NCBI GenBank assembly: GCA_014727845.1
Contig: WJMR01000221.1
Coordinates: 1-46,929, forward strand
Direction: 5' to 3'
Length of the DNA: 46,929 nucleotides
From: Ignavibacteriales bacterium
Lineage (GTDB): Bacteria; Bacteroidota; Ignavibacteria; Ignavibacteriales; Ignavibacteriaceae
Shown here: piece by piece, positions 6,865-37,303 of the stretch
How positions within the stretch are numbered: position 1 is the stretch's first letter
Layout of the letters: every line of letters begins with the position of its first letter
Program-made: the position numbers and the translations under genes
The notes under the pieces: generated by a model
What the model was told of the DNA's origin: nothing
Seen by the model: only the letters and a program-made list of their open reading frames with translations
The model's database searches: none

Positions 6865-7770
6865 ATGGATATTGTTTTTTTCGGAACGCCCGAGTTCGCG
6901 TTGCCCGCGCTCGAAACGTTAATCGAAAGTCGGCACGTCGTCAAGGCGGTCGTCACCGCGCCGGATAAGCCGACGGGGCGAGGCAGGAAGACGCGGGCGT
7001 CCGCCGTCAAGCGATTCGCCGAAGAGCGAGGGATCCCCGTTCTCCAACCCGAACGACTCAAAGACGAGACATTCCTCGACGAGTTACGCGCTTTTCACGC
7101 GGATATGTTCGTCGTCGTGGCGTTCCGCATCCTTCCGCCGGAAGTCTTCGCTATGCCGCCCTTCGGATCCATCAACTTGCACGGATCGCTTCTGCCGAAG
7201 TATCGCGGCGCCGCGCCGATGCAGTGGGCGCTCATCAACGGGGAGCGGGAGACGGGCGTAACGACGTTCGCGCTCGCGAAGAAGGTGGACACGGGCGCGA
7301 CGATTCTTCGGCGCGCCGTCTCGATCGACGAGGACGACGACTTGGGGACGCTTCACGACAAGCTCGCCGACGTCGGCGCGAAGGCGACGCTCGATACGGT
7401 CGATCTCGTCGAGCGTGGAGCGGCGACGCCTCTCGAACAGAACCACGAGCTCGCCACGCCCGCCCCGAAGATTACCGGCGAGCATTGCGTGATCGACTGG
7501 ACGAAACCCGCGCGGGACGTGCGAAATCTCGTGCGCGGCTTATCGCCCGCGCCCGGCGCGCGTTTCGAGAGATCGGGGACGTCGTATAAAGTGTATCGAG
7601 CCGCCGTCGAGGATCGCGACGATCTTGCGCCCGGCGAAGTCGAGGAGACAAAGCGCTCTCTGACGATCGGTTGCGGCGAGAAGGCGCTCGCGGTCGAGGA
7701 GATCCAACCCGAGGGAAGAAAGCGGATGACCGCCGAGGAGTTCGTGCGGGGGTATTCTCTTAACGAATAA
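6865..7770 (+). CDS. fmt: Methionyl-tRNA formyltransferase
   Basis: MDIVFFGTPEFALPAL, INLHGSLLPKYRGAAPMQWALINGE. Confidence 0.95.
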   Translation: MDIVFFGTPEFALPALETLIESRHVVKAVVTAPDKPTGRGRKTRASAVKRFAEERGIPVLQPERLKDETFLDELRAFHADMFVVVAFRILPPEVFAMPPFGSINLHGSLLPKYRGAAPMQWALINGERETGVTTFALAKKVDTGATILRRAVSIDEDDDLGTLHDKLADVGAKATLDTVDLVERGAATPLEQNHELATPAPKITGEHCVIDWTKPARDVRNLVRGLSPAPGARFERSGTSYKVYRAAVEDRDDLAPGEVEETKRSLTIGCGEKALAVEEIQPEGRKRMTAEEFVRGYSLNE

Positions 7771-7783
7771 CCGAGAGACGACG

Positions 7784-8923
7784 ATGAAGTTTTCCACCAA
7801 AGCGTTGCACGTCGGGCAGGAGCCCGACCCTCACACGGGCGCGGTCGTTCCGCCGCCCTATCTGGTGAGTATCTACGAGAAGCCCTCCGCGTTGGAGATG
7901 AACGAGTACGAGTACAGTCGGTTGGATAATCCGACGCGAAGATCGTTGGAGGAGAACATCGCCGCGTTGGAAAACGCGAAGCGGGCGTTGTCGTTCGGAT
8001 CGGGTATGGCGGCGATAGCGGCGGTGGCGCAGTTGGCGAAGCCCGGCGAGCGAATCGTCGCGGCGCGGAACGTGTACGGCGGGGCCTATCGGTATTTTGA
8101 AACGGTCTCGAAACCCGCCGGCGTCGAGATCGAGTGGACGGACGTCAACGACGACGAGGCGCTCGAACGGGCGACGACCGACAACGCGAAAATGATCTTT
8201 TTCGAGACGCCGTCGAATCCTCTGCTCGAGATCACGGACGTCCGACGCGTCGTCGAGTTTGCGAAGTCGCGCGGCGTGTTGACCGTGTTGGACAACACCT
8301 TCGCGACGCCCTATCTGCAGAATCCGCTCGACCTCGGCGCGGACGTCGCGTTGCATAGCACGACGAAATATCTCAACGGGCATAGCGATTTACTGGGCGG
8401 CGCCGCGGCGACGAACGACGACGAGATCGCGAACGTTCTTTGGGCGCATCGCGCCTCGGCGGGTGCGATACCATCGGCGTTCGATTGTTGGCTCACGTTG
8501 CGCTCGATCAAGACGCTCTCGCTTCGGATGGAACGCCACGAGTCCAACGCGAGGAAAATCGCCGAGTTTATCGCCGACCAACCAAAGATCGAGAAAACGC
8601 TCTACCCCGGTTTGCCCGATCACCCTCGGAGGGAAATCGGGGAGCGGCAGTCGCGCGGTTACGGCGGGATGATCTCGTTCGAGTTGGCGAATAAAGACGC
8701 CGCCGTGCGGTTTCTCGACTCGCTCGAGCTGTTCGTCGTCGCGGAAAGCTTGGGCGGCGTGGAAAGCTTAATCGGATTGCCGTGGGAAATGTCGCACAAG
8801 ACGATGCCGCCGGAGTTCAAGGAGAAGGTCGGGATTACGGATCGACTCGTGCGGATGTCGGTCGGGATCGAGGACGTCGAAGATTTGCTCGCGGATATCG
8901 AGCGGGCGCTCGGCCGACTTTAA
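7784..8923 (+). CDS. PLP-dependent trans-sulfuration enzyme (cystathionine gamma-synthase/lyase family)
   Basis: YEYSRLDNPTRRSLEENIAALE, LTVLDNTFATPYLQNPLDLGADVALHSTTKYLNGHSDLLGG. Confidence 0.92.
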   Translation: MKFSTKALHVGQEPDPHTGAVVPPPYLVSIYEKPSALEMNEYEYSRLDNPTRRSLEENIAALENAKRALSFGSGMAAIAAVAQLAKPGERIVAARNVYGGAYRYFETVSKPAGVEIEWTDVNDDEALERATTDNAKMIFFETPSNPLLEITDVRRVVEFAKSRGVLTVLDNTFATPYLQNPLDLGADVALHSTTKYLNGHSDLLGGAAATNDDEIANVLWAHRASAGAIPSAFDCWLTLRSIKTLSLRMERHESNARKIAEFIADQPKIEKTLYPGLPDHPRREIGERQSRGYGGMISFELANKDAAVRFLDSLELFVVAESLGGVESLIGLPWEMSHKTMPPEFKEKVGITDRLVRMSVGIEDVEDLLADIERALGRL

Positions 8924-34949: not shown

Positions 34950-35456
34950 TTAAACGAGATACAGATAGGGCTTCCAGCGTTCGTCCAAAAGGTTGACGGA
35001 ATTTCGGATGAACAGGATGTGCGTCGGTTTATAGGGTTTCACGCGCAATGTCATATTCGTTTCCGAAAGCAGCCGGTCGCCTTTTCTGTTGTTGCAAATG
35101 TGACACGCCGCCGCGAGATTCTTCCAGGAGTCCCGACCTCCGCGCGATTTCGGCACGACGTGGTCGATGGTCAGCGGAACGTCGCCTCTGCCGCAATAGA
35201 CGCAACGAAAGCGGTCGCGGCGGAGGATGTTCTTCCTCGTCAGCGAGACGTTCCGATACGGCGCCTTTACGTAGCGCGCCAATCGGATCACGCTGGGCCA
35301 TGGGTAGTCGCCGCTCACCGTTCGGATCGCTCGGCGCTCGTCTCGCGAGACGAGTTCGGCTTTGCGCGAAAAGACGAGCGTCGTCGCCCGCTTAATCGTG
35401 CACACCGTCAGCGGCTCGTAACTTTGATTCAGCACCAACGCTTTCGCGTTGAGCAT
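34950..35456 (-). CDS. HNH endonuclease
   Basis: ALVLNQSYEPLTVCTIKRATTLVFSRKAELV…RDRFRCVYCGRGDVPLTIDHVVPKSRGGRDSWKNLAAACHICNNRKGDRL. Confidence 0.92.
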   Translation of the reverse strand: MLNAKALVLNQSYEPLTVCTIKRATTLVFSRKAELVSRDERRAIRTVSGDYPWPSVIRLARYVKAPYRNVSLTRKNILRRDRFRCVYCGRGDVPLTIDHVVPKSRGGRDSWKNLAAACHICNNRKGDRLLSETNMTLRVKPYKPTHILFIRNSVNLLDERWKPYLYLV

Positions 35457-35585
35457 GTTCGGGACGCCTTTCGAAAGACTGAACGCGGACTCCTTTTCCG
35501 TTCCTATCCCTTTAACCCCGTCGCGTCGAACGATTAGCGACGGTAATCAAAAATACATATTTGCCAAATATAGAAATTCCAAGCG

Positions 35586-35977
35586 TAATATTACAATCCC
35601 TCCGTGATTTTCTCTCGCTCCTCGATTTGTGAGCTTGAGGCGCCCTATATAATAGATAGCAAAAAGTTCGGGCTCGGGAACGCCTATATGATCAGGAAAA
35701 CGGAGCGGCGCTCGGATTATGCGATTAAGAGATGTATGGATAGCCAACAGTCCGGAGTGTTGAGATTCTCAACAAAATATCGACCTGAATTGACGAGTGT
35801 GTTGAAATATCACACACATATAAAGGAGCGCCGAAAAATTGTGTATGAAATTTCAACAAAGTGGGTTTTCAGAGGATTCGGAGGGGGAAAGGAAAATGCT
35901 TGTATGATATTGTTATATAAGTGGATATGATGTGTCGCGTCCTCACTCCGAATTTTGGCACGGAGGTTGTAATATTA
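35586..35977. repeat. AT-rich island bounded by imperfect terminal inverted repeats (MITE-like or regulatory)
   Basis: Left 35586-35606 TAATATTACAATCCCTCCGTG; right 35959-35977 CACGGAGGTTGTAATATTA (reverse complement TAATATTACAACCTCCGTG); interior clearly more AT-rich than flanks. Confidence 0.65.
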
Positions 35978-36027
35978 GTGGCGTAAGCGAAAACAACTAC
36001 ATAACCTCTAAATAAAGGAATAAGAAA

Positions 36028-36231
36028 ATGGTCGCTATCTTTGTTGTTCTGACGTTCGCAACCTTCATCGCCGTTGATCTGATTGTCTTCCGCAAAAAAT
36101 GGGCGAAGACGCTTAGCGACGCTCCCGGCACGGCTGAAGTCGCCGGCGACAAGCTCTACAACATTCCCGAAGTTGGCTTGACGATGGCGGACGGTCAACC
36201 CGAAGAAGAAGACGAAGAGAAAAACCAATAA
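36028..36231 (+). CDS. Small single-TM acidic-tail protein, paralogue A
   Basis: MVAIFVVLTFATFIAVDLIVFRKKW…NIPEVGLTMADGQPEEEDEEKNQ; RBS AAAGGAATAAGAAAATG; tail shared with 36292..36495. Confidence 0.82.
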   Translation: MVAIFVVLTFATFIAVDLIVFRKKWAKTLSDAPGTAEVAGDKLYNIPEVGLTMADGQPEEEDEEKNQ

Positions 36232-36248
36232 CAACGACATAGTTCGGA

Positions 36249-36271
36249 CGCGCGGTCCTCGCGACCGCGCG
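36249..36271 (+). promoter_or_regulatory. Strong intergenic hairpin between the two small-protein paralogues
   Basis: CGCGCGGTC-CTCGC-GACCGCGCG, perfect 9-bp stem, 18 nt after stop of A; no T-tract. Confidence 0.7.
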
Positions 36272-36291
36272 AACGCGAAAGGAGCAAAACA

Positions 36292-36495
36292 ATGGTACTC
36301 GTATTGGCTATTATCGGAACCGCCTTATTGATGGGCGCGGGATATTTGATCTCGAAGAATAAGTCGCTCGCCGCGATGCGCGAAACGCCCGGCATGGGCG
36401 AAGCCGCGAGAGGCGAAACGATGCAAAACGTTCCGGAAGTCGGGCTTACGATGGCCGACGGCAAGCCGGAAGACGACGCCGAAGAGAAAAAGTAA
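36292..36495 (+). CDS. Small single-TM acidic-tail protein, paralogue B
   Basis: MVLVLAIIGTALLMGAGYLISKNKSL…NVPEVGLTMADGKPEDDAEEKK; RBS AAAGGAG. Confidence 0.82.
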   Translation: MVLVLAIIGTALLMGAGYLISKNKSLAAMRETPGMGEAARGETMQNVPEVGLTMADGKPEDDAEEKK

Positions 36496-36555
36496 GCGTA
36501 TTGTGGAACGCAACGATTCGCTCGCGATTAAAGGCGGGCGGGAGGCGTCCGAAAA

Positions 36556-37254
36556 ATGAGAACCTACAACAATTATCAATGTGTGTGGACGACGTCGAAG
36601 AGCGTCGAGTATCACCACTGCGATCGAAATTTTGACTGCGACGGATGCGAGTTCGACCGTCGGATGCGGGAGAAGCTGAGCCGCGACCGCGACCGCGAAC
36701 GAGGCGACGTCGTCTCCAAGGCGATCGCCGCGCTGGAAAGCGAGCGCTTCGAGACCTTCTATAAGTATCTGCCGAACGGTCTGTTCGCCAAGCCGCTCTT
36801 CGGGAACGCCTTCTATATCGGCGTATCCCCGACGGCGAGACACACGCTCGACAACGTTACCTCCGTCCGCGTTCCCAACAAAGGGAAGGACGTCGGGGCG
36901 GGAGAGACGCTCTTCCGACTCGAAGGCGAATGGGGTTCCGCCGCCGTCCTCGCGCCGATCGATTGCCGATTAGTGGACGCCGCCGACGAAGACAAATCGC
37001 CCGACTTATCCAAATGGATCGGATTGCTCGAGACCGATAAAAGCGTCGAACGGCTCGCCCTCGACGCCGATGGATTCGATCGGGAACGCGCCGCCGCCAA
37101 AGAGTTCTTGAGCGCCTACGCCGTCGAGGAGGTCGATCTACCGACCACGACGATGTTCGACGGCGGAGAACTAGCGACCTTCCTCTACCAAGTCGTCGGC
37201 GCACAAAACTATCTCCGCTTCCTCGAAGAACGATTCGGGGGAAAGACGATCTAA
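36556..37254 (+). CDS. Cys-rich N-terminus plus GcvH-like (biotinyl/lipoyl-like) domain protein
   Basis: YQCVWTTSKSVEYHHCDRNFDCDGCEFDRRM followed by FGNAFYIGVSPTARHTLDNVTSVRVPNKGKDVGAGETLFRLEGEWGSAAVLAPIDCRL. Confidence 0.78.
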   Translation: MRTYNNYQCVWTTSKSVEYHHCDRNFDCDGCEFDRRMREKLSRDRDRERGDVVSKAIAALESERFETFYKYLPNGLFAKPLFGNAFYIGVSPTARHTLDNVTSVRVPNKGKDVGAGETLFRLEGEWGSAAVLAPIDCRLVDAADEDKSPDLSKWIGLLETDKSVERLALDADGFDRERAAAKEFLSAYAVEEVDLPTTTMFDGGELATFLYQVVGAQNYLRFLEERFGGKTI

Positions 37255-37279
37255 ACGAACGACGTTATGTTTTGCTCCG

Positions 37280-37303
37280 GGCGCCCGCGTGGCGCCTTTT
37301 TTT
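37280..37303 (+). terminator. Rho-independent terminator downstream of the GcvH-like gene
   Basis: GGCGCC-CGCGT-GGCGCC-TTTTTTT. Confidence 0.85.

Follow-up and report, generated by a model that had tools for sequence, protein, structure and literature searches.

A GcvH-like gene cassette of an Ignavibacteriales bacterium as a probable remodelled accessory part of a conserved NrfD-containing system, and its candidate docking motif

A three-gene cassette of an Ignavibacteriales bacterium is a remodelled accessory part of a conserved gene system, which occurs in part in other phyla as well. This respiratory-complex system is widespread but apparently undescribed. We consider it probable that the cassette supplies accessory subunits of an NrfD/4Fe-4S complex under haem-c kinase/sigma-54 control. 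ORF1 would be a transmembrane (TM)-anchored GcvH-like protein (mGcvH) without its domain, ORF2 a second anchor and ORF3 a partner with a four-cysteine (Cys4) segment, and the tails of these proteins would dock. The protein family, the operon context of the relatives, the promoter and activator sites, the absence of the lipoyl Lys and the identity of the ORF1 anchor and tail are established. The window, that is, the whole stretch of 46,929 nucleotides that was analyzed, corresponds to contig C162 of a 98.6% complete MAG (3.41 Mb, 429 contigs).

The cassette, its control region and the conserved operon

ORF1 and ORF2 (67 aa each) and ORF3 (232 aa) were all found where a preliminary description, made from the sequence alone, had placed them, and each is preceded by a Shine-Dalgarno-like AGGA, AGGAG or GGAGG sequence (Table 1). 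The terminator proposed in that description is present as a hairpin with a T run, but hits of this class in the region are no more common than expected by chance from shuffles. Inspection by eye also showed an HNH-endonuclease-like minus-strand ORF next to the cassette (window 34950-35456); no link between the two was found.

Table 1. Coordinates of the cassette features in the window
Feature	Position	Strand	Basis or remark
Sigma-54 (-24/-12) promoter TTGGCACGGAGGTTGTA	35955..35971	+	12/13 consensus positions; 0.2 expected per window
Three upstream activator sites, TGTTGA-N5-TCAACA type	35758..35858	.	Starts at 35758, 35800 and 35842
ORF1, 67 aa	36028..36231	+	mGcvH anchor helix (residues 1-24) and TMxDG tail (36166-36195), without lipoyl-like domain
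ORF2, 67 aa	36292..36495	+	Second single-TM protein, same tail (36433-36462), different anchor
ORF3, 232 aa	36556..37254	+	Cys4/GcvH-like protein, TMxDGG near C terminus
Cys4 segment of ORF3 (C9, C22, C28, C31)	36580..36648	+	Invariance; putative metal site
GcvH/lipoyl-like barrel of ORF3, W126 replacing lipoyl Lys	36781..37032	+	Alignment, AlphaFold model, Foldseek
TMFDGG motif of ORF3, as in ORF1/ORF2 tails	37150..37167	+	D202 G203 G204 nearly invariant, 56 sequences
Terminator-like hairpin (37279-37297) and T run	37279..37303	+	Directly 3' of ORF3 stop codon

The AT-rich island upstream of the cassette was confirmed (41% GC at 35560-36027, against about 59% in the surroundings), and it is a sigma-54 control region, which the preliminary description had overlooked. 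The activator sites are spaced exactly 42 bp apart, and the first of them is a perfect palindrome (TGTTGAGATTCTCAACA) whose sole exact occurrence in the 3.4-Mb genome is in this island. Among the relatives, 25 of 32 carry a sigma-54 element 51 to 81 bp before the first gene. Nearly all relatives also have the TGTTGA-N5-TCAACA element upstream of the operon, with 25 sites matching at 11/12 where shuffles gave an expectation of 0.1. A scan for sigma-70 promoters returned nothing above chance.

In the relatives, the operon consists, in this order, of a small TM protein (in some), mGcvH, an HmcB/HybA-like 4Fe-4S protein, NrfD, the ORF3 family protein, a histidine kinase, a sigma-54 response regulator, and an M54 peptidase-like protein. 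The 54 well-flanked loci contained an mGcvH-type gene in 40 cases, NrfD in 41, the kinase in 48, and the regulator in 46. The mGcvH protein (about 223 aa) is TM-anchored and GcvH-like (Pfam, 8e-10; PDB profile search, 1.6e-16; Foldseek, 1.4e-8), and no lipoyl Lys was found in its alignment. A profile search detected the ORF3 family in 45 of 164 genomes of Ignavibacteriales, 37 of which encode a full-length mGcvH and 7 another GcvH-like protein, the window genome being the only one with neither; at the genome level, the co-occurrence of mGcvH with the ORF3 family (37/45) gave a Fisher p of 3e-21. The other GcvH-like proteins of the seven genomes are mostly longer and, in the cases read, TM-REC-GcvH fusions. 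Two loci (L084:7672-8835 and L088:7751-8914) encode an mGcvH-related fusion of 387 aa comprising a TM segment, a receiver domain and a GcvH-like domain, and similar long matches are common throughout the order.

In 58 of 59 relatives, a single CxxCH lies in the sensor half of the kinase, suggesting a haem-c sensor kinase. An M54 archaemetzincin-like gene lies directly 3' of the sigma-54 regulator gene in most loci. NrfH/NrfA-like cytochrome genes were seen by eye 3' of the operon in L028 and L029, hinting at nitrite or similar respiration in some relatives.

The remaining genes of the system are present elsewhere in the same genome. Contig C30 carries the HybA-like and NrfD genes (L051:7209-9111, HybA at 7209-7976), followed by a cytochrome-like gene that is cut by the contig end; a weaker sigma-54-like site lies at L051:7106, with no clear activator palindrome. 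Contig C79 carries the kinase, sigma-54 regulator and M54 genes (L155:2658-6156). The kinase gene spans L155:2658-4259, the orthologous regulator between it and the M54 gene (L155:4259-5614) shows 65% identity, and the M54 gene (L155:5614-6156) has an intact HExxHxxGxxH motif. With parts on the window, C30 and C79, the system is therefore present but split over three loci.

Anchors of the two small membrane proteins

When searched against the whole genome, the mGcvH profile gave only two matches, namely, the canonical GcvH, which has the lipoyl Lys and is separately encoded on contig C291, and residues 1 to 24 of ORF1. The mGcvH domain was not found in this MAG by profile search, so that the genome retains of mGcvH just the anchor and the tail; a weak match to the mGcvH tail on contig C153 (E 0.5) proved on inspection to contain no related gene. 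The ORF1 anchor scored 39.1 bits against the mGcvH anchor profile; true members scored 44.9 to 69.7 bits, and 114 unrelated membrane helices reached 15.0 bits at most. Among 7712 short ORFs from the relatives' loci and the window, ORF1 was the only one with an mGcvH-type anchor. Because ORF1 combines an mGcvH anchor with an mGcvH tail in a genome without the domain, it looks like a domain-less mGcvH. We conclude that ORF1 is probably mGcvH minus the lipoyl-like domain, although a full gene could have escaped assembly, the MAG being split into 429 contigs.

Alternatively, ORF1 and ORF2 could belong to the family of small TM proteins encoded upstream of mGcvH in the relatives, with mGcvH lost and the tail doing the same job. 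The architecture, the size range, the motif and the first position behind the promoter are all shared with that family, and the ORF2 anchor fits neither anchor profile (0.3 bits for mGcvH and 4.6 bits for the small proteins). However, the score of 39.1 bits for the ORF1 anchor against the mGcvH profile contrasts with only 7.1 bits against the small-protein profile, and we regard this origin as unlikely. As judged by its sequence, ORF2 joins the same tail to a second anchor. A search of 58 relatives with the complete ORF2 (67 aa) gave no match beyond the genome itself because conservation is limited to the anchor and tail.

The Cys4 segment and GcvH-like domain of ORF3

ORF3 belongs to the system by its four Cys, its GcvH-like domain and its C-terminal TMxDGG. 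The Cys pattern of the preliminary description, C9-x12-C22-x5-C28-x2-C31, is correct, and C9, W11, C22, C28 and C31 are invariant in 21 ORF3 homologues that were found without using the Cys motif. Whole-genome searches found homologues in 26 of 59 genomes, including its own, mostly at 22 to 35% identity and mostly over the full length. A scan of 85,462 species for the pattern Y[KR]LCDxxF[DE]C, in which the pattern residues were not counted as conserved, gave 94 relatives. The 80 that were kept come from Ignavibacteria, Bacteroidota, Deltaproteobacteria/Desulfobacterales, Gemmatimonadales, Acidobacteria, Calditrichaeota, planctomycetes and others.

The suspected GcvH-like fold was borne out by the AlphaFold model (mean pLDDT 84), which resembles GcvH structures (Foldseek E 1.2e-7), GcvH being also the best PDB fold match; against Pfam GCV_H, ORF3 scored 20.5 bits, just under the cut-off of 22.2. 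In the model, a hairpin and a long helix with the Cys are followed by the GcvH barrel, the motif loop and a C-terminal helix, and the Cys4 segment is partly of low confidence. As had been noted, the lipoyl Lys is missing; the aligned residue is W126. This column holds Trp in 30 of 56 ORF3-family sequences and Asn, Asp or Gly in most mGcvH proteins. Judging from the absence of this Lys, the earlier proposal of a repurposed lipoyl domain appears sound, and the GcvH-like domain is probably non-lipoylated.

The preliminary description also suggested redox or metal sensing as a possible function; the cassette would then sense the redox state or a metal via the Cys4 segment and relay the signal through the tails. 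The four invariant Cys are compatible with such a sensor, and some family members in Desulfobacterota adjoin kinase-regulator-M54 genes without a membrane complex. Against it, the kinase has a haem-c motif of its own, ORF1 to ORF3 have no output domain, and the sole predicted sensor is the linked histidine kinase on another contig. We consider this function of the cassette improbable. The ORF3 relatives of these Desulfobacterota loci (L107:8947-9876 and similar ones) have two Cys-rich repeats before the GcvH-like domain.

ORF3 and mGcvH share their barrel fold with canonical GcvH, as indicated by the best Foldseek hits, but they differ from it in lacking the lipoyl Lys, in carrying a TM anchor or Cys4 segment and a TMxDGG tail, and in showing no linkage to gcvT or gcvP in the neighborhoods read. 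LbpA of sHdr sulfur oxidation (PMC6067878) is the nearest known case in which a redox enzyme system has recruited a GcvH-like protein. In LbpA the lipoyl Lys is strictly conserved (PMC6067878), whereas it is missing here, and the partner here is NrfD/4Fe-4S, not Hdr. The NCBIfam family NF045810, "GcvH-related protein" (GcvH_rel_desulf), gave 42 bits with the Desulfobacterota relative L107, far under the cut-off of 150 bits, and no match with ORF3 itself.

The TMxDG(G) tail and the proposed role of the cassette

The nearly identical tails reported for the two 67-aa proteins were confirmed in the shared core PEVGLTMADG, and ORF1 and ORF2 align from end to end (38% identity, E 3e-10). ORF3 also bears the motif, as TMFDGG near its C terminus, a copy that had been overlooked; all three genes thus encode TMxDG. 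From the sequences compared, the PEVGLTMADG tail is the TMxDGG motif of the wider system, located near the C terminus of mGcvH, the small TM proteins and ORF3. Among annotated neighbors, TMxDGG occurs in 60 of 89 mGcvH proteins, 54 of 81 ORF3-family proteins and 19 small TM proteins, against only 1 of 576 other ORFs of at least 130 aa. None was found among the kinase, regulator, NrfD, HybA and M54 proteins of the loci. A DNA pattern for TMxDG gave 13 genome-wide matches, of which the three in the cassette are relevant and the rest lie in genes such as that for GAPDH.

The mGcvH C terminus reads PELAGxTMxDGG...FExEFL, and the ORF1 tail, VGLTMADG, resembles such tails, for example, AGLTMADGG in L042. 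Small TM proteins directly upstream of mGcvH carry LASETMYDGG, LATETMYDGG or LVGATMYDGG followed by a polar tail. In two Desulfobacterales/Desulfobulbaceae loci, a small TM protein of another build ends in ELG[IV]TMPDGGEP[VI]EKE..., which is strikingly similar to the window tails. Tail-bearing small TM proteins are thus present in other genomes, where they co-occur with the GcvH-like gene, as the preliminary description expected. Its view that the tail is the selected part agrees with the recurrence of the motif in three protein types of one system. In both AlphaFold models (mGcvH and ORF3), the motif sits in a low-confidence loop, which is probably flexible.

The strict motif tracks the membrane GcvH. 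Loci whose ORF3-family protein has it contain mGcvH in 35 of 36 cases, compared with 4 of 22 where it is missing (p 3e-10, a value that is indicative only, as the genomes are related and shared ancestry enters the count). The tail might instead be a site that the M54 archaemetzincin-like protein recognizes or processes, and M54 would in that way control the turnover of the GcvH-like proteins. The position of the M54 gene after the regulator in most loci and the intact zincin motif of the copy in this genome fit such a site. However, the association of the strict motif with M54 is weaker (p 0.06), and in Desulfobacterota loci that have kinase, regulator and M54 without mGcvH, the motif has decayed to AADGG. 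Both the tracking of mGcvH and this decay favor a role in the membrane complex over an M54 role, and we find the M54 site quite improbable. Within the PEVGLTMADG core, 6 of 10 codons differ between ORF1 and ORF2, all synonymously and none non-synonymously, which indicates that the tail is under purifying selection. That ORF1 and ORF2 are functionless, decaying gene fragments is very improbable: ORF1 does resemble what is left of a larger protein after truncation, and among 58 relatives no homologue matches the 67-aa proteins in full, but the ORFs are intact, with ribosome-binding sites, a strong conserved promoter, and this synonymous-only core.

The 4Fe-4S and NrfD proteins on C30 match best the Hmc complex (HmcB/HmcC, NCBIfam NF045715/NF045714) and next best E. 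coli HybA/HybB (HybA and the Ni/Fe-hydrogenase cytochrome b subunit), but they remain under the Hmc equivalog cut-offs (253 versus 420 and 300 versus 550 bits). In the literature searched, GcvH-like or tail proteins were not described for Hmc or Hyb, NrfD was not mentioned together with GcvH, nor an archaemetzincin with a histidine kinase, and for the Tmc complex nothing but an unrelated RiPP system came up. Glycine cleavage and lipoyl proteins go unmentioned in a review of NrfD-like subunits (PMC8076601). The TMxDGG motif likewise appears undescribed, a negative result from the literature searched that is no proof.

The cassette is upheld as a membrane-associated module, as first proposed, and as accessory subunits it would work as follows. 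The complex would be of the Hmc/Hyb type, with a 4Fe-4S HybA-like subunit and an NrfD quinone subunit, and would be switched on by the haem-c sensor kinase and the sigma-54 response regulator. The anchor helices are predicted to be N-out/C-in because positive residues come after the helix, which would put the tails on the cytoplasmic side of the membrane. The anchors and ORF3, the putative cytoplasmic Cys4/GcvH-like partner, may dock by their TMxDG(G) tails to a common site on the HybA-NrfD complex, and ORF3 would thereby be tethered there. The Cys4 site could be structural or redox-active, and the lipoyl-like domain would serve as a scaffold, not as a lipoate carrier. We tentatively propose, as a reading that may well prove wrong, that TMxDGG is a new short docking motif that three protein types share within an undescribed NrfD respiratory system containing GcvH. 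The motif would recruit non-lipoylated GcvH-like scaffolds to the complex, one carrier being reduced here to bare membrane-anchored tail peptides.

The window represents a natural deletion experiment, in which the large domain was probably lost and the anchor and tail were kept. Since these persist with the domain gone, the essential part appears to be the motif of about 10 residues. If this is true, many of the anaerobes' proteins that carry the annotation "glycine cleavage system protein H" would fall outside glycine cleavage and would instead be non-lipoylated scaffold subunits of respiratory complexes of the NrfD type, controlled by haem sensing and sigma-54.
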